Source of the DNA: Atribacter laminatus
GTDB lineage: Bacteria; Atribacterota; Atribacteria; Atribacterales; Atribacteraceae
Reading direction: 5' to 3'
Assembly (NCBI RefSeq): GCF_015775515.1
Contig: NZ_CP065383.1
Location: 2,294,001 to 2,358,000 of the forward strand
DNA length: 64,000 nt
This document shows, one piece after another, positions 16,439 through 27,323 of this stretch. A program made the position numbers and the translations under genes. Below the pieces are notes generated by a model. That model was not told the origin of the DNA. It worked only from the letters and a program-made list of their open reading frames with translations, and did no database searches. How positions within the stretch are numbered: the first letter of the stretch is position 1; each line of letters opens with the position of its first letter.

Positions 16439-16514
16439 GCGGAAATAGCTCAGTAGGTAGAGCATCGGCTTCCCAAGCCGAGGGTCGCGGGTTCAAATCC
16501 CGTTTTCCGCTCCA
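16439..16514 (+). tRNA. tRNA-Gly (anticodon CCC)
   Basis: A 76-base cloverleaf with acceptor arms GCGGAAA / TTTCCGC, anticodon stem TCGGC/GCCGA closing the loop TTCCCAA (anticodon CCC, codon GGG), T loop GGTTCAAATCC, discriminator T and encoded CCA. A TATAAT lies at 16423-16428, ten bases upstream. It is the insertion site of the 10.9-kb element; 68 of its 76 bases are duplicated at the far end of that element. Confidence 0.93.
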
Positions 16515-16522
16515 TTATTTTT
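16447..16522 (+). repeat. Left attachment repeat (attL)
   Basis: 76 bp identical to 27248-27323. Begins at base 9 of tRNA-Gly (AGCTCAGTAGG) and runs 8 bases past the CCA (TTATTTTT). The full tRNA is kept on this side. Confidence 0.93.
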
Positions 16523-16619: not shown

Positions 16620-18140
16620 TCAATTTAAAGGTGAAACGTAATTCTTGAATAATTCCCTAACCTGTAATTCAGCAATACCATCAACTTGAACGGGTTGGTT
16701 TATTTCTATTTGTTTATAAATCCATTTCCTAGTGTAACGAATGGTCCACCCCATTTCTTCAGCCTTGCTATTGATGATTCTGGAACGCAAACTTCGGGCA
16801 ACACACCCCTCTGTTTTCCAAAGATATTTCAATGTTTCATATCCTTCTTTATCAATCAAATATTGATTAATTGTTTGAATAAATCCTTCTTGGGTAATCT
16901 GTTCATAAGATTGACCTACGTTTATAATTTTCCCGTTAACTATTTGCCGATATATCCATCGAATTAAAACATCCAAACTAAAATTTTCAACATCCTGAGC
17001 GTAAAGATTTTCATAATAATAAAACAGTTTTGCTGCTTCACGAATTGTAAGAGGGAAAGTAAAATAATTAATTAGCTTATTTCCCTTATTGCCTAACTTA
17101 TCATTCTTCTTTGATTCAAAGAGTATTTCTAACTTATCACCCTCAACCACCAAATCAGACCTCTTCTTCACTTCATTTAACTTTAATCCTCTAATGGTAT
17201 TCTTTAGATATATTCTAAATGACCCTTTACTCAATGGTGCTTTCCAGTTTTTCATTAATGCTTCGTAGGTATCCCACGCATAACTTTCAATATCTTCTTT
17301 CTTTATGTTCATATGCTTTTGTAAAAATTTTATGAGATATTTAAAAATATATGTTTTAAGCAATTCATTCTCTTCTTGTCCCTGGCGAAGAGCCCAGATA
17401 CACATTTGGGTGATTATTTCTTCTTGGGAGGCTTCCTCGACAAAAATGATAGGAGAGGGGTGGGGATGAATCTTCCTTAAGTCAGTCTTTGTTTTGGTTA
17501 TTAATTTTTTATCTTCTCTGAGACGTTTAAATTTCTTTATGTCAATTTCAAGAAGTTTACATTGAGTTTTTATATCGTCAATTCTGGGGAGATTCCCTTT
17601 CCTGCTTTCTTCCAACATCCAGGGAATTCTTTTGATTGCTTCCTCTCGATTTTTACCGGCATTTAGCATTACTTCTAAAACATCTTGATAAACTCTATTT
17701 TTAATCATATATCTTAAACAAGCAGTTTGCCAAAAGAACAGTCGAGTATTGATATATTTATCTTCTTGTTCTACTTCATAGTGTCCCATATGAAAAGTTT
17801 TAGAAAAAATCATATCATCAACTTTCGGGAAAGTTAGTAAACCAGAAAAGATAAAATAAAAATACATATCATAACCCATAAGAAGAACTACGTTAATATG
17901 ATTTGGTCCGGGTTGAGGTTGATATTCCATAAACCAACTATTTTCATCTTTTATATCAGTAAACTTATACCTATCATCTTCGGACAACAACTGAATAAAT
18001 AAAGATTCTCGATATGTCCATTGGTTGATTCCTTCACTAGGATGAAATTCTCTTAATCGAGTAAGATTGTCTTCCATTCTTCTAGAAACTAGATTCCAGC
18101 CTTTTATTAATTCTTCCGGGGTAAATTCCTTCTCATCCAT
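16620..18140 (-). CDS. Orphan 506-residue protein with sigma-region-2-like segment
   Basis: I do not recognise a named family. The N-terminal third is mixed and aromatic-rich (GPNHINVVLLMGYDMYFYFIFSG). Residues about 245-330 hold a helical stretch (LLKTYIFKYLIKFLQKHMNI, then DIESYAWDTYEALMKNW, then GSFRIYLKNTIRGLKLNEVKKR) that reads like region 2 of ECF sigma factors. The C-terminal part begins LTIREAAKLFYYYENL and continues through IRWIYRQIVNGKI, reminiscent of an excisionase/MerR-type DNA-binding unit, and ends with a second WxxRYTRKWIYKQI segment. It sits alone at the left end of the element, reading toward the tRNA. A regulatory or excision role is a guess. Confidence 0.55.
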   Translation of the reverse strand: MDEKEFTPEELIKGWNLVSRRMEDNLTRLREFHPSEGINQWTYRESLFIQLLSEDDRYKFTDIKDENSWFMEYQPQPGPNHINVVLLMGYDMYFYFIFSGLLTFPKVDDMIFSKTFHMGHYEVEQEDKYINTRLFFWQTACLRYMIKNRVYQDVLEVMLNAGKNREEAIKRIPWMLEESRKGNLPRIDDIKTQCKLLEIDIKKFKRLREDKKLITKTKTDLRKIHPHPSPIIFVEEASQEEIITQMCIWALRQGQEENELLKTYIFKYLIKFLQKHMNIKKEDIESYAWDTYEALMKNWKAPLSKGSFRIYLKNTIRGLKLNEVKKRSDLVVEGDKLEILFESKKNDKLGNKGNKLINYFTFPLTIREAAKLFYYYENLYAQDVENFSLDVLIRWIYRQIVNGKIINVGQSYEQITQEGFIQTINQYLIDKEGYETLKYLWKTEGCVARSLRSRIINSKAEEMGWTIRYTRKWIYKQIEINQPVQVDGIAELQVRELFKNYVSPLN

Positions 18141-18230: not shown

Positions 18231-18446
18231 ATGGTGAACAAAATGAAATTTCTCCGGTTAAGTCGGGGGATGAAAACTTGGGAATTAGGAGCCCGGGTAG
18301 GGTGTGGTGAAGTTTTTTTGAACGGTGTTGAAAATGAAAGGATAAAGGCGAGCTCTGAATTGTTAAAGAAAATTTCAAATGAGCTTGGAACTACAAAAGA
18401 AGAATTGTTTGAAAGAGTAGAAATTAAAGCGGTGGGAGTCAAGTAA
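18231..18446 (+). CDS. Small XRE-type helix-turn-helix regulator
   Basis: 71 residues covering little more than one Cro/C1-type DNA-binding domain: MKFLRLSRGMKTWELGARVGCGEVFLNGVENERIKASSELLKKISNELGTTKEELF, where the helix-turn-helix would be about residues 16-37 and the helix ending in ELF is typical of this family. AGGAGG lies 7 bases before the ATG. It faces away from the 506-residue gene and precedes the replication genes, a place often taken by the repressor or copy-control protein of a mobile element. Confidence 0.75.
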   Translation: MVNKMKFLRLSRGMKTWELGARVGCGEVFLNGVENERIKASSELLKKISNELGTTKEELFERVEIKAVGVK

Positions 18447-18530: not shown

Positions 18531-18926
18531 GTGCACTCCTCGACAACAATTATAACAAAGACTGGTAAAGTTATCGACTTGTGGAAAATATACAAAGTAA
18601 AGGGCAAAATACTTTACAAATCGTTAAGCGGTTCTGGTCATACCCTAACAACCCCCCCAGGGTTCGCTGTTGACTATGGGATATTTTTAGAAGCCCGGGA
18701 TAAAGGGTGTCGGTTCGTCCAGTTTTATGATAGGGAAGTTGAGATTTTTTATACAGCAAAAATTGAAGACTTTTTATCAAAGGGATTCCGGTTTAATCGA
18801 GGATTCGGGGAGCAAGTAGGACTTTCATTATCGAAGTGGATAAAAACAAATACGTCAAAAATTTCGAGAAAATTAATTTTTGAAGCTCCATACTTCCCAT
18901 TTTTTAAGGACAACAATGGACAATAA
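18531..18926 (+). CDS. Unrecognised small protein before the primase gene
   Basis: 131 residues from GTG 18531, chosen because AAGGAG lies 7 bases upstream; an earlier in-frame TTG at 18489 lies inside the inverted repeat and has no ribosome site. It reads MHSSTTIITKTGKVIDLWKIYKVKGKILYKS at the start and has no membrane segment or motif I know. Its stop overlaps the primase start by 11 bases, so the two are likely made together. A replication accessory role is possible but only by position. Confidence 0.6.
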   Translation: MHSSTTIITKTGKVIDLWKIYKVKGKILYKSLSGSGHTLTTPPGFAVDYGIFLEARDKGCRFVQFYDREVEIFYTAKIEDFLSKGFRFNRGFGEQVGLSLSKWIKTNTSKISRKLIFEAPYFPFFKDNNGQ

Positions 18927-20193
18927 AAAAGAAATAATTGAAACCCTAAAAGCCCTCTACTCTTCCAATTCAGTTATTGAATTGCGAATTCCCAAATCAA
19001 AATATGGTCTGGTGAGCGGTTATTTCAATGACTTCAACCTCCTGGCCGAAGCAGTAATGAAATTTGATGGGAAAGTTGCCGGAATTTATATCACCCTTAA
19101 CATAGTTAATCCAGACCTTCTATATCGGGCTAAGAACAAGTTGAAGTTTGGCCGGGAAGCCAATCCTACCACCAGTGACCAAGATATTACTGAAATTAGT
19201 TGGTTACCCATGGATTTCGACCCGGTCCGGCCTTCTGATATTTCAAGTAACGATGAAGAACATGAAAAAGCATTGGCAAAGGCACAGGAGGTAAGGGAAT
19301 GGCTGACCGTTCAAGGATGGCCAACCCCTATTTTTTCAGATTCAGGAAACGGAGGCCATTTGATTTATCCGGTCAAACTTCCCAATGACCAAGAAAGCCG
19401 AAAGCTAATAGAAAAGTGCTTAAAGGCCTTGGACTTTCTATTCTCTGATGAGGTGGTCAAAATTGATACTAAAGTTGGGAATCCAGGGAGAATTTGGAAA
19501 CTGTATGGCACAATAAGCGCTAAGGGCGAAAACTCTCCAGAACGACCCTGGAGACGGTCAAGAATAATTGAAACCCCAGAAAAGTTAATCCCTGTAACCC
19601 GTAAGCAATTGGAGAAATTAGCCGGTTTTCTTCCTGAGTCCCCAAGAGGTAAGGTTAATGGAAGTATTGATATTGAACGATGGTTAGATGAACACAACAT
19701 TAAGGTATCCAAAATTAAAAACTGGAACGATGGAATCCTTTATGAACTTGAAGAATGTCCTTGGAATCCGGAGCATAAACGGACAGCATACATTATCCAA
19801 TTTTCCAGCGGTGGAATAGCTGCAAAATGTTTCCATAATAGCTGTAGTGAAGAAAATTGGTGGACCCTTAGAGACATGTTGGAACCTGGATGGAGGAAGA
19901 ATAAGCCGGAGAAAAACCAAGATGATAACCCTATCTCATATCTTTCTGTTAACGATATTTTAGCCCAGGAAAAGGACATCATCCCTCTTTGGGGAAATAT
20001 GCTTTTTTCTGAAGCGGTCCATATACTTGTTGCTAATACTGGGGTTGGGAAAACTACCTTAATTTATAATCTCATTATTCATGCTGCAAATGGTGATGAG
20101 TTCCTGGGTGCTCAATTCTCAAGGCCTTTGAAGGTACTCTATTTGACTTTGAAACCCCCCGGGCTCTCCGAGGCCATAAGCTCAAAGCGATAA
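18916..20193 (+). CDS. Primase-helicase, N-terminal part (AEP primase + broken ATPase)
   Basis: Residues 1-210 match the archaeo-eukaryotic primase (PrimPol) plan of mobile-element replication proteins: motif I WLPMDFDPVRP with Asp100 and Asp102, motif II SGNGGHL with His148, and motif III IDTKVGNPGRIWKLYGT with Asp184 and Lys195. A Cys/His unit follows (CPWNPEHK and CFHNSC), then a RecA-like ATPase with Walker A ANTGVGKTTL near 374-381. After VLYL the frame leaves the family: DFETP is replaced by TLKPP and a stop follows at 20191. The rest is one frame back (20145-21173). ATG 18916 has AAGGA upstream. With the frame restored the product would be about 750 residues. Confidence 0.8.
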   Translation: MDNKKEIIETLKALYSSNSVIELRIPKSKYGLVSGYFNDFNLLAEAVMKFDGKVAGIYITLNIVNPDLLYRAKNKLKFGREANPTTSDQDITEISWLPMDFDPVRPSDISSNDEEHEKALAKAQEVREWLTVQGWPTPIFSDSGNGGHLIYPVKLPNDQESRKLIEKCLKALDFLFSDEVVKIDTKVGNPGRIWKLYGTISAKGENSPERPWRRSRIIETPEKLIPVTRKQLEKLAGFLPESPRGKVNGSIDIERWLDEHNIKVSKIKNWNDGILYELEECPWNPEHKRTAYIIQFSSGGIAAKCFHNSCSEENWWTLRDMLEPGWRKNKPEKNQDDNPISYLSVNDILAQEKDIIPLWGNMLFSEAVHILVANTGVGKTTLIYNLIIHAANGDEFLGAQFSRPLKVLYLTLKPPGLSEAISSKR

Positions 20194-21173
20194 AAGGATA
20201 TAAGAGAGCAGCTGAGAATATCCTCATTATTGAAAATCCACTTACCATGGAACAGTTGAAAAGTGAAATAATTAAAAACCATTTTGACATAGTAATCATT
20301 GACACTTACGACCTCTTCTTTCCCATGGATAAAGAGGACGATAACGGAAAAATCAATAAAAATATCATCGGACCTTTACTCACTATTGCCCGGGGAACTG
20401 GAGTAGCGATAATCTTAGTTCATCATTGTTCAAAAGGCGCATTGGAGCGTGACAAAACCCAAAGAGGCCGGGGAGCGAGTGTACTCAATAATCATGCCCA
20501 CGTTCTAATTAACTTAGAAACGACCCAGGATGAGGAAATACTTAAACTGGATGTTGTGAAAAACCGTTTTATGCCTAATGTATGTGTGTATCTCAAGAAG
20601 GTTTGCGGTGAATTTGAGGTGGTAGACCGGCCGGACTATGAATTTACTAAAACCCAATTGGCCGAGAAATGCATTTTAAAGGTTTTGGAAAAAGGAGAAC
20701 AGCAATTAAAGGACATCCTTTATGAAGTGGAAAATATGGGAATATCAGAAAAGACCGGGCGGTTGGTTTTAACTACCTTACAAACTTCGGGGAAAATAAT
20801 TAGAAGCAGTTACGGAAAATATTGCGAAGCGGGGAATTCAGAAAAATTACCAAGTTGCCAAAATATGGCTATACAAAGCGAAGAAAACCTGGTAATCCAA
20901 GTTGGTAATGACTTGGTAAATTACCAAGTTCCTCAAAACCAACTTGGTAATACAAAAGATGATTACCAAGTTCCATTACCAGGTTTTTTAGGCTCTACAA
21001 AGCACCTTAAACCCCAACTTGGTAATTTGGTAACACAATTAGACGATAAAGATAATACCTCAAACAATAAAACAACCTCCAAGGAAGAAAACCTTTCTAA
21101 AATTCCTCCTCCCAGAGAAGAACCAGTGAAAACAACCGAGAAAAAGAATCCATTAAAAGAAGTAACGATATGA
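20145..21173 (+). pseudogene. Primase-helicase, C-terminal part, frameshifted from the upstream gene
   Basis: This continues the ATPase of the preceding gene in the -1 frame: DFETPRALRGHKLKAIKGYK follows directly on VLYL. It then has Walker B FDIVIIDTYDLFF, ILVHHCSKGALERDKTQRGRGASVLNN (the sensor segment of RepA/KaiC-like helicases) and a winged-helix-like stretch near the middle. The last 100 residues are Gln/Asn/Leu-rich and follow the iteron-like DNA repeats rather than a protein fold. The first ATG is at 20247, too late to give a working ATPase. A one-base loss at about 20142-20145, in a T run, explains the break; a sequence error is equally possible. Confidence 0.75.
20847..21033. repeat. 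Iteron-like cluster AACTTGGTAA, candidate replication origin
   Basis: The 10-mer AACTTGGTAA or its complement TTACCAAGTT occurs at 20847-20856, 20921-20930, 20941-20950, 20963-20972 and 21016-21025; ACTTGGTAA at 20911-20919 pairs with the next copy to make a 19-base palindrome. One- or two-mismatch versions lie at about 20888, 20902, 20974 and 21026. Spacings are irregular and both orientations occur. Such clusters in or beside a rep gene are typical of plasmid or phage origins bound by the initiator. Confidence 0.65.
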
Positions 21174-21466
21174 CCACCTTTGAACTTCTCGAGGAATTAA
21201 AAAAGCGAAAGATAATTATTTATTTATCGGAAGGGAAAATAAAGCTAAAAGGGGAAGAGGAAACCCTCACCCCGGAACTCATTGACACCATTCGAAAGTA
21301 TAAATCGGAATTAGTGAAGTATTTGACCGAACGGTCAAGGAATGATGACCAGACCGAATGGGTAAAATATGCTCAATGGGCCTGGACTGGAATCCTCTTA
21401 GAAGCTGAGAGACAAGGCGATTCTGAACGAGCCCATTTTGCCAAACAAGTCTTGGAAACGATATAG
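21170..21466 (+). CDS. Small protein with TubC-type N-terminal docking-like domain
   Basis: 98 residues. The first 50 (FELLEELKKRKIIIYLSEGKIKLKGEEETLTPELIDTIRKYKSELVKYL) resemble the TubC N-terminal docking domain, known from NRPS/PKS enzymes but also common in small plasmid and phage genes where its partner is unknown. The rest (WVKYAQWAWTGILLEAERQGD) is helical. Its ATG overlaps the previous stop by 4 bases (ATGA), so it belongs to the replication operon. Confidence 0.65.
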   Translation: MTTFELLEELKKRKIIIYLSEGKIKLKGEEETLTPELIDTIRKYKSELVKYLTERSRNDDQTEWVKYAQWAWTGILLEAERQGDSERAHFAKQVLETI

Positions 21467-21567: not shown

Positions 21568-21942
21568 ATAACCGACAATGAGCGACTAAAACTCAAAGAT
21601 GAAGCGATTATCAGCGCATTATTAGCGACTGGAAGCCAACGGGAAGCCGGCCGGTGCGTCAAGGTGTCAGAAAGTACCATCAGGAGGAAACTAAAGAATC
21701 CGGCATTTATAGAACAATACGACCAGGCCAGGCGGAAAGCCTTTTCAATAAGTTTAGGACGGTTACAATACATGACAACCCAGGCTTGCTCAGTGATTGA
21801 GGAACTTCTCAACTCTAAGAAACCTTCAAGTACCCGATTGAGTGCAGCCCGGACCATTCTTGAATACGGTGTGAAATGGTTGGAACTTTCCGATATAGAA
21901 ACCCGGTTAAGCTCACTGGAAAAGAAGATGGAGGGAAAGTAA
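21568..21942 (+). CDS. Phage-type HTH protein (terminase-small-subunit-like), unusual start
   Basis: In frame from 21562 the product reads ITDNERLKLKDEAIISALLATGSQREAGRCVKVSESTIRRKLKNPAFIEQYDQARR, which is the helix-turn-helix plan of small terminase subunits and related phage DNA-binding proteins (an 'A/G..A...G.S..TI.R.L..p.F...y...r' pattern). The C-terminal half is helical with a short coiled end (IETRLSSLEKKMEG). No ATG, GTG or TTG lies before this domain; ATA at 21568, 7 bases after AGAAGGTG, is the best start, or the start codon has been lost. A GTG at 21664 would cut off the DNA-binding part. Confidence 0.6.
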   Translation: MTDNERLKLKDEAIISALLATGSQREAGRCVKVSESTIRRKLKNPAFIEQYDQARRKAFSISLGRLQYMTTQACSVIEELLNSKKPSSTRLSAARTILEYGVKWLELSDIETRLSSLEKKMEGK

Positions 21943-22163: not shown

Positions 22164-22420
22164 GAGAATCTATGAATTACTTTTTAAAGTTGTTGGAAAG
22201 ACAGAATCGCTATTTATTAAGGTAGTATAAGCGTAAGAAAGGTCTTTTATTCTTTGGGTGGTATGTTTATACCTTTTTAGAAAGTTAGGAGCTTTCTATG
22301 CCATGCTATCAACGGATAAAGGGCAATGTTTAAGCGATAGTTTGGAAATTCAGAATGATATTGGTAAAACAAAAAGTGCGTAAAGACTAGTAAAGATGAT
22401 TAAGGTTACATATTCTGAGA

Positions 22421-22477
22421 AAATTGGTTCTTAGAAAATCAGCATTTGATTTAATCCATATCTCTAAGAACCAATTT
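22421..22477. terminator. Long inverted repeat, possible two-way terminator
   Basis: AAATTGGTTCTTAGA (22421-22435) and TCTAAGAACCAATTT (22463-22477) form a perfect 15-bp stem around 27 bases, with A and T runs at the outer ends. It lies between the last forward gene of the element and the reverse cupin gene, the place for a shared terminator. The rest of the 22164-22501 gap shows nothing coding; GGTATGTTTATACC near 22258 is a short palindrome. Confidence 0.5.
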
Positions 22478-22501
22478 TTGGACTTCCAGAAAATCTCAAA
22501 T

Positions 22502-22998: not shown

Positions 22999-24510
22999 CT
23001 CAACTTTCGCAGTTCAATAATAGCACTTTTTCTCTCAACCATGCTGGAAGACTATTTACAAAATAGATGAGTAGCTCTTTGACTTTTTCTTCTGAAAGGA
23101 CAAGAATCTGTTTGATGGTCGTCTTCAGGAGCTCAAGAAGAAGAGTGAGTGCTTCCATAAGAGTGATATCCTGAATTTCATCATAGCAGGCATAGAAAAG
23201 CTCGCCAAAGGTTCGGGGATCGGTGTTTCTCCGGGCAATAACCGCGAGCATGATATAGCGGATAAAGACGATACTGGTATGGGATACCAGAGCATCATAG
23301 GATCGAACCTGAAATTCTCGAGTGAGTTTCAAGACCGATTTCACCATCTTGAAGAAAACCTCGATATCCCAGCGTTTCCCATAGAGGGTGACGATCTCGT
23401 CTTCAGAAAGAGACAGATCGGTTGAAAGCAGTGCCAGCCACTGGTTTTTTTGTTTTTCACTTCGGACCAAGACGATGCGGGCATACAGGGGGTTATCAGT
23501 CAAATTGAGATTAATCACACAAGATCCAAGGATCGGACCCTGTGGTCTTTTCTGAATCCGGTTGAAAAGAGAGGAAAGAGAAAGAACTTTTCCACCAAAA
23601 GAATAGTAAATTTTTGGGGTGTTTTTGAGCATGCACACCACTGATAATCCGCGAAGAGCACATTTGCGGATGAGGGCTGGAAAACTGAACCAACTATCAA
23701 AGAGAATAGTTGAGACCAAAGGACAGTGTTTCAAGGCTCCATCCAGGAGGTTGAAGAAGACATCTGGAGCTTTTTCTTGGGATTCTTTCCGAAGGTGAGC
23801 TCTTTTGCTCCGCCCATCAATGGAGGCATCCATGGGACAGAGCTGGTTTTCTTTTTGGTGAGAACTTAACAATGAAAAAGCAAAGGGAATGAATGTAGCA
23901 CCATCGGTGAGTCCTAAAGTGAGCATTCTGAAACCCCGACTGAACCGTCCTTGGGCGTGATCATAGAATCGAGAGAGCCCTTCAACTTTCAAGCTCCGAG
24001 GCCGTTCATAGGGGGAATCATCCACCACCCAGGTGTAGCGTTTCAAACTGGTAAAAGGAAGGAGCGCTTCAGAGACTACTTTGGTACTCAAAAGAAAGAG
24101 CAATTTTCGCCAGCTCCCACTGGTCTTGTGGAGGAAACGGTAAAGAGTGTCTTTCTTTCCTTGGAAAAGGGGATGTCGAGATTGGAGAAGACCAGCAACG
24201 TTTTTCTGAGTAAAGACTAGGAGAAAGATCATCTGAAAGACGTCTTTGACTGGGAACCCTTTCTTTTTGTTCATATGGCATTTTCGAAACAGTTGGTTCA
24301 CTTTAAACTCCTTCATAAAGGAGGAAAACATGGGTAACAAGGTCCTTTCATTTTTCAAATTTTCTGGTAGGATAGTCATGAAGACACCTCTCTCTTTGTG
24401 GTGATTGGTTTTTTTCCTTAAGTCAATTCTACCAGAAAGGAGGGGTGTTTTCATTAAAAAACCCTTTAAAATCAAGGTTTTTCAGCATTTATTTTAGTGC
24501 GAAAGTTGAG
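22999..24510 (-). mobile_element. Intact IS4-family insertion sequence, 1512 bp
   Basis: Perfect 13-bp inverted repeats CTCAACTTTCGCA (22999-23011) and TGCGAAAGTTGAG (24498-24510), flanked on both sides by TTATAAT (22992-22998 and 24511-24517), a 7-bp target duplication. It contains a single complete transposase gene whose stop codon lies inside the left inverted repeat. The unbroken gene and matching target copies point to a recent insertion. Confidence 0.9.
23000..24379 (-). CDS. IS4-family DDE transposase
   Basis: 459 residues from ATG 24379, which has AGAGGTG 6 bases upstream; an earlier in-frame codon at 24475 would add 32 residues without a ribosome site. Catalytic Asp residues are expected in WVVDDSPYER and ILFDSWFSFP, and the C-terminal IS4 signature Y-x2-R-x3-E-x6-K is exact in YGKRWDIEVFFKMVK. 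It cuts and pastes the surrounding 1.5-kb element. The final codons (NCES, stop) are encoded by the inverted repeat. Confidence 0.93.
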   Translation of the reverse strand: MTILPENLKNERTLLPMFSSFMKEFKVNQLFRKCHMNKKKGFPVKDVFQMIFLLVFTQKNVAGLLQSRHPLFQGKKDTLYRFLHKTSGSWRKLLFLLSTKVVSEALLPFTSLKRYTWVVDDSPYERPRSLKVEGLSRFYDHAQGRFSRGFRMLTLGLTDGATFIPFAFSLLSSHQKENQLCPMDASIDGRSKRAHLRKESQEKAPDVFFNLLDGALKHCPLVSTILFDSWFSFPALIRKCALRGLSVVCMLKNTPKIYYSFGGKVLSLSSLFNRIQKRPQGPILGSCVINLNLTDNPLYARIVLVRSEKQKNQWLALLSTDLSLSEDEIVTLYGKRWDIEVFFKMVKSVLKLTREFQVRSYDALVSHTSIVFIRYIMLAVIARRNTDPRTFGELFYACYDEIQDITLMEALTLLLELLKTTIKQILVLSEEKVKELLIYFVNSLPAWLREKVLLLNCES

Positions 24511-24558: not shown

Positions 24559-26143
24559 GTTCGCAATTTCGCACCTTGAAAAAAGCCACCGGAGACTCCA
24601 AAATGAAGGTTGTACGAAACAAAAACTTCATCGAGGAGGAATATCCGATGGCTCAAAATAATCATACACCATATCTTTTAAAAAATGCTCCTTGAATTCA
24701 TGACTCAAACCTGATCCGCTTTATGCAATGCTCGAGTGGCTGACCAATGAACTTATGAAACTAAAACTGAAAACAAAGTAGGGGCTCACCAAGGAGAGCA
24801 TTGTTCAACCCGAACCACCATTCTTTCGGTATCCGAGTCAGACGATTTGATACGAGGTTAGGAACCATCTACCTTCTGGTTCCAAAACTAAGGAAAGGAG
24901 GCTATATTCCTTTTTTTGTGACTAAAAAGGAAACGCTCCGAACAAGCCCTCCTGAAAGGTGGTTCAAGAAGCCTTTATCAATGGTGTTTCCACCTTAAAA
25001 AATGGAGCGCCTCGCTCAAAGCTTAGGGATTCAAATCCCTCTTTTGCTGGTCAAGGATCAGAAATCACCAAAGATCTCAACGAACAAGTCGAATGGTTCC
25101 GTACCCGTCCTTTGGAAAAAGAATACCCAGTCATTTGGGTTGATGCCCTCTACGAGAAAGTTCGCTGTGAAAGACACGTCATCAGCATGGCGGTAGCTGT
25201 TGTCCAAGGTCTGACCAGCGAGGGAAATCGAGAGATCCTGGAGGTCGAATCCTTGATAGCTTGAATCAGAAGACACCTATACTCATCTCTTTGAACAGCT
25301 TAAAAGCCGAGGAGTGGAAACCGTCTGGCTTTGTGCATCCATTGCTCATGCAGGACTGAAAAATGCCATTTTAGAAATGTTTCTTAGGATCAAGTTGGCA
25401 ACGCTTTCAAAGTACACTTTATGCGAAATATAGTGGTCCATATCCCCCATAAAGAAAAAGAATCCATAGCCCTCAACTCAAAACAAATCTGGTACCAGCC
25501 TGACCAAGAGAGTGCGAAACGGGTTGTTCTGTTGGTCATCCAGGAATACCGAGATCGCTTTCCTCAAGCCATTGCTCTTTTAGAGGAAGGACTGGAAGAT
25601 TCCTTACAATTCCTGGCTTTTCCTCACCTTGACCAACGAAAGATCTCTTCGACCAACTCACTCGAGCGGATTCACAAAGAGATTCGTCGTCGAACCCGAG
25701 TGGTAGGGATCTTTCCTACCACCGATTCCTATCTCCGGTTGGTCACCAGTTATCTCATTGAGTATACTGAAGATTGGATGAGGAGTAAAAAGTATATCAG
25801 CTCTGAGGCGATTACCGAGCAACAAGCAGAGCTTCTAAAGATAGCCTAAAAAAAGAAAAGAAAACAAAAAGAAAGAAAGAGGCTGTGGATAGATGGACAA
25901 CCCTGCGGGTTGACCACAGATCCACAGCCCGACGACTCATGAATAGTTATTCACTAAAACAACAGAAAAAATTGACCAAATAGAAAGGTCCTATTCTTCT
26001 CTTTATTTTTTATCATTCATATTGCTGGAAGAGGAGGTGAATAAATCGAGTCATTGTTCAAAGAGAGATGACTTTCCATTCAAGTAAGGTCATCTCTGTG
26101 TTCAAAAAGGGTCTCCGGTGTTTGCTAAGAGTAAATTGCGAAC
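24559..26143 (+). mobile_element. Decayed IS256-family element
   Basis: GTTCGCAATTT at 24559-24569 is matched in reverse complement by AAATTGCGAAC at 26133-26143, and CACCGGAGAC recurs about 20-25 bases inside both ends, giving imperfect inverted repeats of roughly 40 bases. The 1585-bp interval holds a broken mutator-type transposase gene and, after it, a hairpin (GGCTGTGGAT at 25881 with ATCCACAGCC ending at 25929). No matching target duplication is visible. It lies 49 bp from the IS4 element. Confidence 0.75.
24649..25849 (+). pseudogene. IS256/mutator-family transposase, broken
   Basis: Fragments of one transposase lie in shifting frames. From 24649 the N-terminus (MAQNNHTPYLL) soon meets a stop; LEWLTNELMKLKLK follows in another frame; 24959-25263 gives YPVIWVDALYEKVRCERHVISMAVAVVQGLTSEGNREILEVE, which is the central catalytic Asp region; 25421-25849 gives the C-terminus with ISSTNSLERIHKEIRRRTRVVGIFPTTDSYLRLV, the most conserved part of the family. 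Several stops and frameshifts make it non-functional. Confidence 0.88.
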
Positions 26144-26239: not shown

Positions 26240-27163
26240 TTAAATATTCTTTATCCTCTTCTTATTAAACAAATTAACCGGTGAAGCGGTCTCATGCTCT
26301 CTCTTCAAATCTTCTCCCGTCAAGGCCAAATATCTCTTTGTCATATTCAAATCAGCATGGCCCATAGTCCGTTGAAGGGCAAAGACATTCCCTCCATTAC
26401 GAAGGTAGATTAGAGCGAAGGAATGACGGAGAGAATAGGGGGTGATTGAATGGCCAAGTTGTTGACTGTATTTCTTCAATCGGTGAGCCCAGGAGGTTTC
26501 AAGCATGGGTTTTCCCTCATAGGAGCAAAAGACTGGTACGGTATCACCCCAGGCATTCAAACGACCCTTTATTAACTTCTGAAGGTAGGTAGCAGTAAGG
26601 GGAGAGATTGGAACGGTCCGGGTTGATTTAGTTTTGGCTATTTCCTTTCTGATGGTAACCTCCAGGCCAAGAAGATTTATATCCTTTGGGAGAAGGGATA
26701 AGGCCTCACTGGGACGGACTCCGGTATCAAGGGTGAAAAGAATTAGACAGTAATCTCTTAACCCGGTAAAGGTTCTTTTATCAGGTTTTTTGAGGAGTTC
26801 CATTAAAAGTTCCTGGGAAATATTTCGAGCCTTATACTCATCCTTCCTTACCGGGAAATCGATTGGATTATTAGGAATAACTCCTATCTTCACCAGGTAA
26901 GAAAAGAAACATTTTAAATATTTCCGTCTTATATTGAAAGTTGCTGGAGCAATATCAGAAACGGCAAAATACTTTGAGACTTCTTGACTGAGTAAATAAT
27001 AATCATCTAAACAGTCAGGTGAATTTTTGAAGAAACGAGGAATATGATGTTGATAATCTTTAATAGTTCTTTCCCGGCAACCCTGGATTTTCTTTTCTGT
27101 TATAAATTCAGAAAGATATTCCCTCCAGGTTAAAACTTCAATCAGTCTTAAAGTTCTTCCCAT
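26240..27163 (-). CDS. Tyrosine recombinase (integrase) of the element
   Basis: 307 residues. N-terminal SAM-like core-binding domain (about 20-110), then the catalytic domain with Arg in TLDTGVRPSEALSLL, Lys in the beta hairpin (KEIAKTKSTRTVPIS), YSLRHSFALIYLRNGG for the H/Y-x-x-R box, RTMGHADLNMTKRYL with the final His and the nucleophilic Tyr. ATG 27163 is chosen because GGAAGGAG lies 8 bases upstream; the codon at 27187 has none. It reads inward from the right attachment repeat, which is 85 bases away. Its start region overlaps a candidate arm site and an inverted repeat. Confidence 0.92.
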   Translation of the reverse strand: MGRTLRLIEVLTWREYLSEFITEKKIQGCRERTIKDYQHHIPRFFKNSPDCLDDYYLLSQEVSKYFAVSDIAPATFNIRRKYLKCFFSYLVKIGVIPNNPIDFPVRKDEYKARNISQELLMELLKKPDKRTFTGLRDYCLILFTLDTGVRPSEALSLLPKDINLLGLEVTIRKEIAKTKSTRTVPISPLTATYLQKLIKGRLNAWGDTVPVFCSYEGKPMLETSWAHRLKKYSQQLGHSITPYSLRHSFALIYLRNGGNVFALQRTMGHADLNMTKRYLALTGEDLKREHETASPVNLFNKKRIKNI

Positions 27164-27216
27164 TGAAAACACTCCTTCCAAGAGCATCGGCCTCTTGATT
27201 TATTTCAATGGGAAGA
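27155..27216. promoter_or_regulatory. Inverted repeat covering the integrase start codon
   Basis: TCTTCCCATTGAAA (27155-27168) and TTTCAATGGGAAGA (27203-27216) form a perfect 14-bp stem with a 34-base loop. In the reverse-strand transcript the integrase ATG is in the stem and its ribosome site in the loop, so folding would hide the start codon. It could equally be a protein-binding site. Confidence 0.5.
27174..27193 (+). repeat. Candidate integrase arm-type site, right
   Basis: CCTTCCAAGAGCATCGGCCT, 18 of 20 identical to 16571-16590 and in the same direction. It overlaps the ribosome site of the integrase gene, so binding here could also control integrase expression. Confidence 0.55.
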
Positions 27217-27247: not shown

Positions 27248-27323
27248 AGCTCAGTAGGTAGAGCATCGGCTTCCCAAGCCGAGGGTCGCGGGTTCAAATC
27301 CCGTTTTCCGCTCCATTATTTTT
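27248..27323 (+). repeat. Right attachment repeat (attR), truncated tRNA-Gly copy
   Basis: 76 bp identical to 16447-16522. It lacks the first 8 bases of the tRNA, so the 5' acceptor strand is absent and it cannot fold as a full tRNA; preceding bases (CTTTCA) do not restore it. Confidence 0.93.

Follow-up and report, generated by a model that had tools for sequence, protein, structure and literature searches.

An array of AACTTGGTAA sites in both orientations, contained in the 3′ part of a helicase gene, is probably, in our judgement with good confidence, the replication origin of a small integrated element of Atribacter laminatus, where it would be bound by the winged helix of the helicase that the same gene encodes. 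The array was analysed in a 64-kb stretch of the genome, hereafter the window, and its features are collected in Table 1.

Table 1. Features of the integrated element and of the repeat array, in window coordinates
Feature	Coordinates	Strand	Evidence or remark
tRNA-Gly (CCC), integration target	16439..16514	+	ARAGORN
Left att repeat, 76 bp	16447..16522	+	exact direct repeat of 27248-27323
Cro/C1-type HTH regulator	18231..18446	+	PF01381 7e-5
Predicted initiator helicase, first half (N-terminal region, Walker A)	18880..20193	+	AAA_25 profile positions 10-79, 1.8e-9
Predicted initiator helicase, second half (rest of AAA_25, winged helix, array-coding tail)	20247..21173	+	AAA_25 profile positions 132-193, 5e-7
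Winged-helix domain codons	20673..20828	+	weak MCM_C match, residues 143-194
Nested dyad of sites, predicted extended single-strand hairpin	20844..21028	+	DNA fold -39.6 kcal/mol, z -8.3
Iteron array, candidate origin	20847..21033	+	site positions, shuffles, recurrence in homologues
Array site 1, exact	20847..20856	-
Array site 2, one mismatch	20886..20895	+
Array site 3, one mismatch	20899..20908	+
Array site 4, one mismatch	20910..20919	+
Palindrome of 19 bp from sites 4 and 5, ACTTGGTAA A TTACCAAGT	20911..20929	none	sequence
Array site 5, exact	20921..20930	-
Array site 6, exact	20941..20950	+
Array site 7, exact	20963..20972	-
Array site 8, one mismatch	20976..20985	-
Array site 9, exact	21016..21025	+
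Array site 10, one mismatch	21024..21033	+
Next gene, TubC_N docking domain	21170..21466	+	PF18563 1.6e-9; ATGA overlap with helicase stop
Terminase-small-subunit-like gene	21664..21942	+	PHROG 2538 0.002 (weak); 35% identical to G024 protein
Tyrosine integrase of element	26240..27187	-	PF00589 1.9e-28; 59% identical to G024-contig integrase
Right att repeat, 76 bp	27248..27323	+	exact repeat; element absent in three congeners

The array is clustered beyond chance. The initial annotation had reported five exact 10-mers in both orientations and a 19-base palindrome made by an overlapping pair, and both were borne out; its four near matches proved to be five, so that the array holds five exact and five one-mismatch copies. 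Dinucleotide shuffling of the window gives an expectation of 0.20 exact copies, and five were reached in 0 of 100 shuffles. The genome-wide motif count for which the annotation had asked returned 16 exact copies in 3.1 Mb, five of them in the array and the remaining 11 widely scattered, with more than one copy at no other place. When the most frequent 10-mer was counted in each 200-bp tile of the window, the array reached 7–8 copies against at most four elsewhere, and it is the sole strong repeat cluster within the 64 kb.

The surroundings of the array are those of a mobile element. The exact 76-bp repeats span most of the tRNA-Gly gene, and in the congeners G002, G003, and G004 the flanks join at the tRNA with no insert; the segment between the repeats is therefore an integrated element of 10.8 kb. 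Its gene set comprises a tyrosine integrase at the right end, an HTH regulator, the helicase, and a gene weakly resembling a terminase small subunit, whose G024 counterpart matches that subunit at 6.6e-9. The element also contains a DDE_5-type insertion sequence (22999–24510) with 22-bp terminal inverted repeats (86%), a truncated Mutator-family transposase (25421–25849), a 506-residue protein (16620–18140, minus strand) that has no significant family match, and, between element genes and the insertion sequence, a 16-bp inverted repeat free of mismatches around a 27-bp loop (22420–22478).

The helicase gene is split by a one-base frameshift near 20,140–20,160 into two open reading frames, each matching one half of AAA_25 and each in a frame of its own; the G024 homologue is uninterrupted (642 residues) and 45% identical to the product of the second frame, and the helicase frames of G289 and G434 are likewise open. 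The window copy may thus be degenerate, or the frameshift may be a sequencing error. A profile of the homologues, with the window not among its rows, found its best PDB match in RSF1010 RepA (1g8y, 6.6e-15). Judged by sequence, the window gene product is a RepA-type helicase with a winged-helix domain C-terminal of the core; the winged-helix match is weak in the window, and in homologues IclR, TrmB, and HTH_24 matches stand above cut-off. The gene order runs from the AAA_25 core through the winged helix to the array, which follows 19 bp further on. The initial annotation had placed the repeats inside the 3′ end of a primase-helicase gene: the helicase and its 3′ end hold, but the gene is split by the frameshift, and the likeness of its N-terminus to an archaeo-eukaryotic-type primase is by eye only, with no supporting profile match. 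Because the next gene begins within the helicase stop codon (ATGA, 21170–21173), there is no intergenic room at this place for a non-coding array. In G412 and G157, too, the helicase is followed by a TubC_N-like gene of similar sequence that overlaps it at the start in the same way (L170:11065–11400 and L168:11099–11440).

Homologues were chosen by protein similarity to the helicase (AAA) and winged-helix regions, never by repeats, from the window's own phylum (50 genomes) and from samples of the phyla of three MAGs, one each from Clostridia, Anaerolineae, and Desulfocapsa. In each, the 330 bp after the winged helix were tested, and an array was counted as significant when its 9-mer family was matched by at most 2 of 200 shuffles. 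A significant array directly follows the winged helix in 22 of 31 homologues versus 0 of 20 RadA controls, and nine homologues have no significant array in those 330 bp; chance sites inside the helicase domain, the comparison for the array counts, number 2–5. This recurrent position supports the earlier proposal of an origin within the replication gene. A conserved protein unaccompanied by repeats had been named as one observation that would speak against the proposal, and here the outcome is divided: the nearest relative, G024, has an array, but the nine homologues just mentioned have no significant one.

The position of the array relative to the stop codon varies. It lies wholly or mostly within the gene in 12 cases (the window and 11 homologues) and in 10 it falls entirely or largely beyond the stop codon; the array is therefore a DNA feature able to occupy either side. 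In G411, G289, and G454 the frame stays open beyond the array and goes on to encode zinc-ribbon-like cysteine motifs, so an array can also code for an inter-domain linker. The layout recurs in relatives from several bacterial phyla, and the repeat sequence differs in almost every homologue: TGACACA in G024, CAGAGTTCA in G411, GAGTGAA in G289, GGTAACC in G434, GTGGTTACA in G483, and GCGAGCA in G297. Despite their differing motifs, G297 and G483 have the orientation pattern -----++-+++ in common, and near variants of it occur in G289 and G262. Motif sharing rises with the identity of the winged helices (Mantel r 0.40, 0 of 2000 permutations), a correlation driven by a few close pairs; the pair formed by the window and its nearest relative (G000/G024, 41% identity) has no common motif. 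Many homologue loci lie near related integrases (six strong, several weak) and tRNA genes, and duplicated tRNAs surround the helicase in G434 and G297. Helicase relatives at L081 and L082 (G665) have a Toprim-like N-terminus and, as read by eye from the peptide, inverted pairs of the CCAACAAC/GTTGTTGG type in the pre-ATPase linker and after the winged helix; these pairs are not significant in the array test. When the window or G024 protein was compared with viral contigs and genome contigs, no relatives appeared. Among plasmid records the window half had no match and G024 a single weak one, and the helicase of phage MW202444 is distant, stops after its winged helix, and has no repeats.

The same position bears on the alternative that the array is a control site, that is, an operator, a copy-number or incompatibility locus, or a partition centromere, bound by the helicase winged helix or the element HTH protein, with the origin elsewhere. 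The element does encode a Cro-like HTH regulator, operators can be clusters of sites in both orientations, and plasmid iterons often act in control as well as in replication. We nevertheless regard this alternative as improbable: the arrays follow winged-helix codons in the 22 homologues rather than a promoter or par gene, none of the scanned element proteins was recognisable as a par product, and the array is the only strong repeat cluster in the window.

Eight of the ten window sites can be arranged as four nested pairs with a common centre (symmetry p 0.0004), an arrangement that is found again in G024 (p 0.0012) and weakly in G289 (p 0.018) and is not significant in seven others tested. 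Since the symmetry is a post hoc observation and does not hold generally, we treat it as a possible clue to assembly in the window lineage only. The strong predicted hairpin, together with the symmetry of both G000 and G024, could also mean that the array acts as RNA or single-stranded DNA, whether as a helicase mRNA hairpin in attenuation or mRNA stability, or as a single-strand or packaging signal. This seems very unlikely to us, since base-pairing is trivial for any inverted sites, several homologous arrays are asymmetric, many sites stand in tandem, and arrays are also found past the stop codon.

Selection appears to act on the DNA of the array and not on the encoded peptide, and several observations support this conclusion. 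First, the sites occupy codon phases 0, 1, and 2 in both orientations and so encode differing peptides. Second, when synonymous codons were shuffled with the peptide held fixed (n=3000), the mean was 2.0 sites and the maximum seven, versus the ten observed. Because the sites fill all three frames and exceed all 3,000 shuffles, the DNA is the conserved part and the peptide repeats are its by-product. Third, homologues keep an array while motif and peptide both change. The initial annotation had taken the repetitive Gln/Asn/Leu tail as a sign of DNA-level selection, and these results agree with it. Hardly credible, by the same evidence, is a low-complexity protein tail or replication-slippage minisatellite that has no DNA function: eight-base AACTTGGT tandem arrays, mostly intergenic, do exist in unrelated genomes, but the window sites combine irregular spacing with both orientations, three codon phases, and the synonymous-shuffle excess, and unrelated motifs recur at the same place in coding and non-coding context across homologues. 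We also considered AACTTGGT as an iteron common to bacteria and rejected it, its exact tandem matches in viral and genome contigs being mostly intergenic and none lying at a helicase gene of this family. Octamer minisatellites of this kind were seen in L060–L075 (e.g., L070:1–230 and L060:5500–6150).

If the array is the origin, its arrangement has partial counterparts in known systems. RSF1010 RepA is the nearest solved structure to the helicase core, with a match confined to the ATPase core (profile 3–160). RSF1010 uses a separate RepC for origin binding, and its RepA has no fused origin-binding domain, in contrast to the window helicase with its fused winged helix. The lambdoid O and gene 18 origins (lambda, P22, and L) contain iterons within the initiator coding region, and these iterons differ from one related initiator to another (PMC8022706; PMC6022878). 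The window array likewise lies inside an initiator open reading frame (20247–21173), but it follows the winged helix, whereas the lambda origin is central in O. Lambda O is a non-helicase that works with a separate P protein and host DnaB; the window gene itself has the AAA_25 helicase core, which unites helicase and putative origin reader in a single polypeptide. In the initiator helicases SaPI Rep and SCCmec Cch2, the C-terminal domain recognises iterons located at the 3′ end of the helicase gene itself (PMC7581432), and these likewise placed origins, along with the mobile-element setting, further support an origin at the array. The predicted winged helix on the C-terminal side of AAA_25 resembles this design. 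The SaPI and SCC arrays lie downstream of the gene, unlike the coding arrays of the window and 11 homologues and like the 10 past the stop codon, and the window helicase, of AAA_25/RecA type, differs from theirs. Gram-negative PICIs are small integrated elements that carry a replication gene; two sets of iterons, one on each side of an AT-rich region, are reported for them (PMC6092414). The window element shares the size, integration, replication gene, and iterons, with a terminase-small-like gene nearby, but two sets around an AT-rich region are not evident: GC content is flat at 0.32–0.40 throughout, and no distinct AT-rich melting segment was seen flanking the array. In the IncU plasmid RA3 the minimal oriV maps to the 3′ end of the coding sequence of repB, and relatives have related repeats inside or downstream of repB (PMC9455977). 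The likeness to the window array, also at the 3′ end of a replication gene, is one of description, not sequence; the RA3 oriV differs in its long repeats, its AT-rich region, and its activation by outside transcription. AICE RepAM was set aside as a precedent, as the paper does not put its origin in the gene. By analogy, the window case would combine, in a RepA-type helicase, the initiator-embedded origin of lambda O with the logic of SaPI Rep and SCC Cch2. A literature search that covered mostly open-access papers found no description of this class, which may be new.

The following sequence of events is proposed. The element would encode a single large initiator, namely a hexameric helicase of RepA/RecA type that has a winged helix on its C-terminal side. 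After excision, this winged helix would recognise the AACTTGGTAA sites contained in the 3′ part of the gene that encodes it. The nested, two-orientation layout of the sites would allow oppositely oriented helicase subunits to assemble, perhaps as two hexamers or around an extruded hairpin. The assembled helicase would then melt the DNA, and replication would start. Meanwhile the coding frame would remain open across the array, whose peptide would be a tolerant linker or tail, with selection acting on the DNA. Transcription through the array is unavoidable and might, speculatively, couple expression to initiation; transcriptional activation occurs at lambda ori (PMC6022878) and at RA3 oriV (PMC9455977). 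The analysis establishes the array, its position, its conservation at the level of DNA, its setting in a mobile element, and its recurrence with other motifs in homologues; from these we infer the winged helix as site reader, the array as origin, and the mode of assembly, and the frameshifted window copy may or may not still be active.

On balance we lean, if only slightly, toward a broader reading in which widespread small tRNA-integrated elements are one-gene replicons: the gene of a winged-helix RepA-type helicase would contain its own origin, the array could precede or follow the stop codon, and the iteron sequence would turn over quickly together with the winged helix, making replication element-specific. 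Such a class would provide a simple rule for locating the origins of uncharacterised integrated elements, just past the winged-helix codons of the helicase. Its paired DNA-binding domains and cognate sites would allow tests of initiator and origin co-change, and it would offer a natural case of a conserved DNA element that lies in a coding region and encodes a drifting peptide. A replicon of this kind, made of a single gene, could serve as a compact vector part for poorly tractable bacteria.
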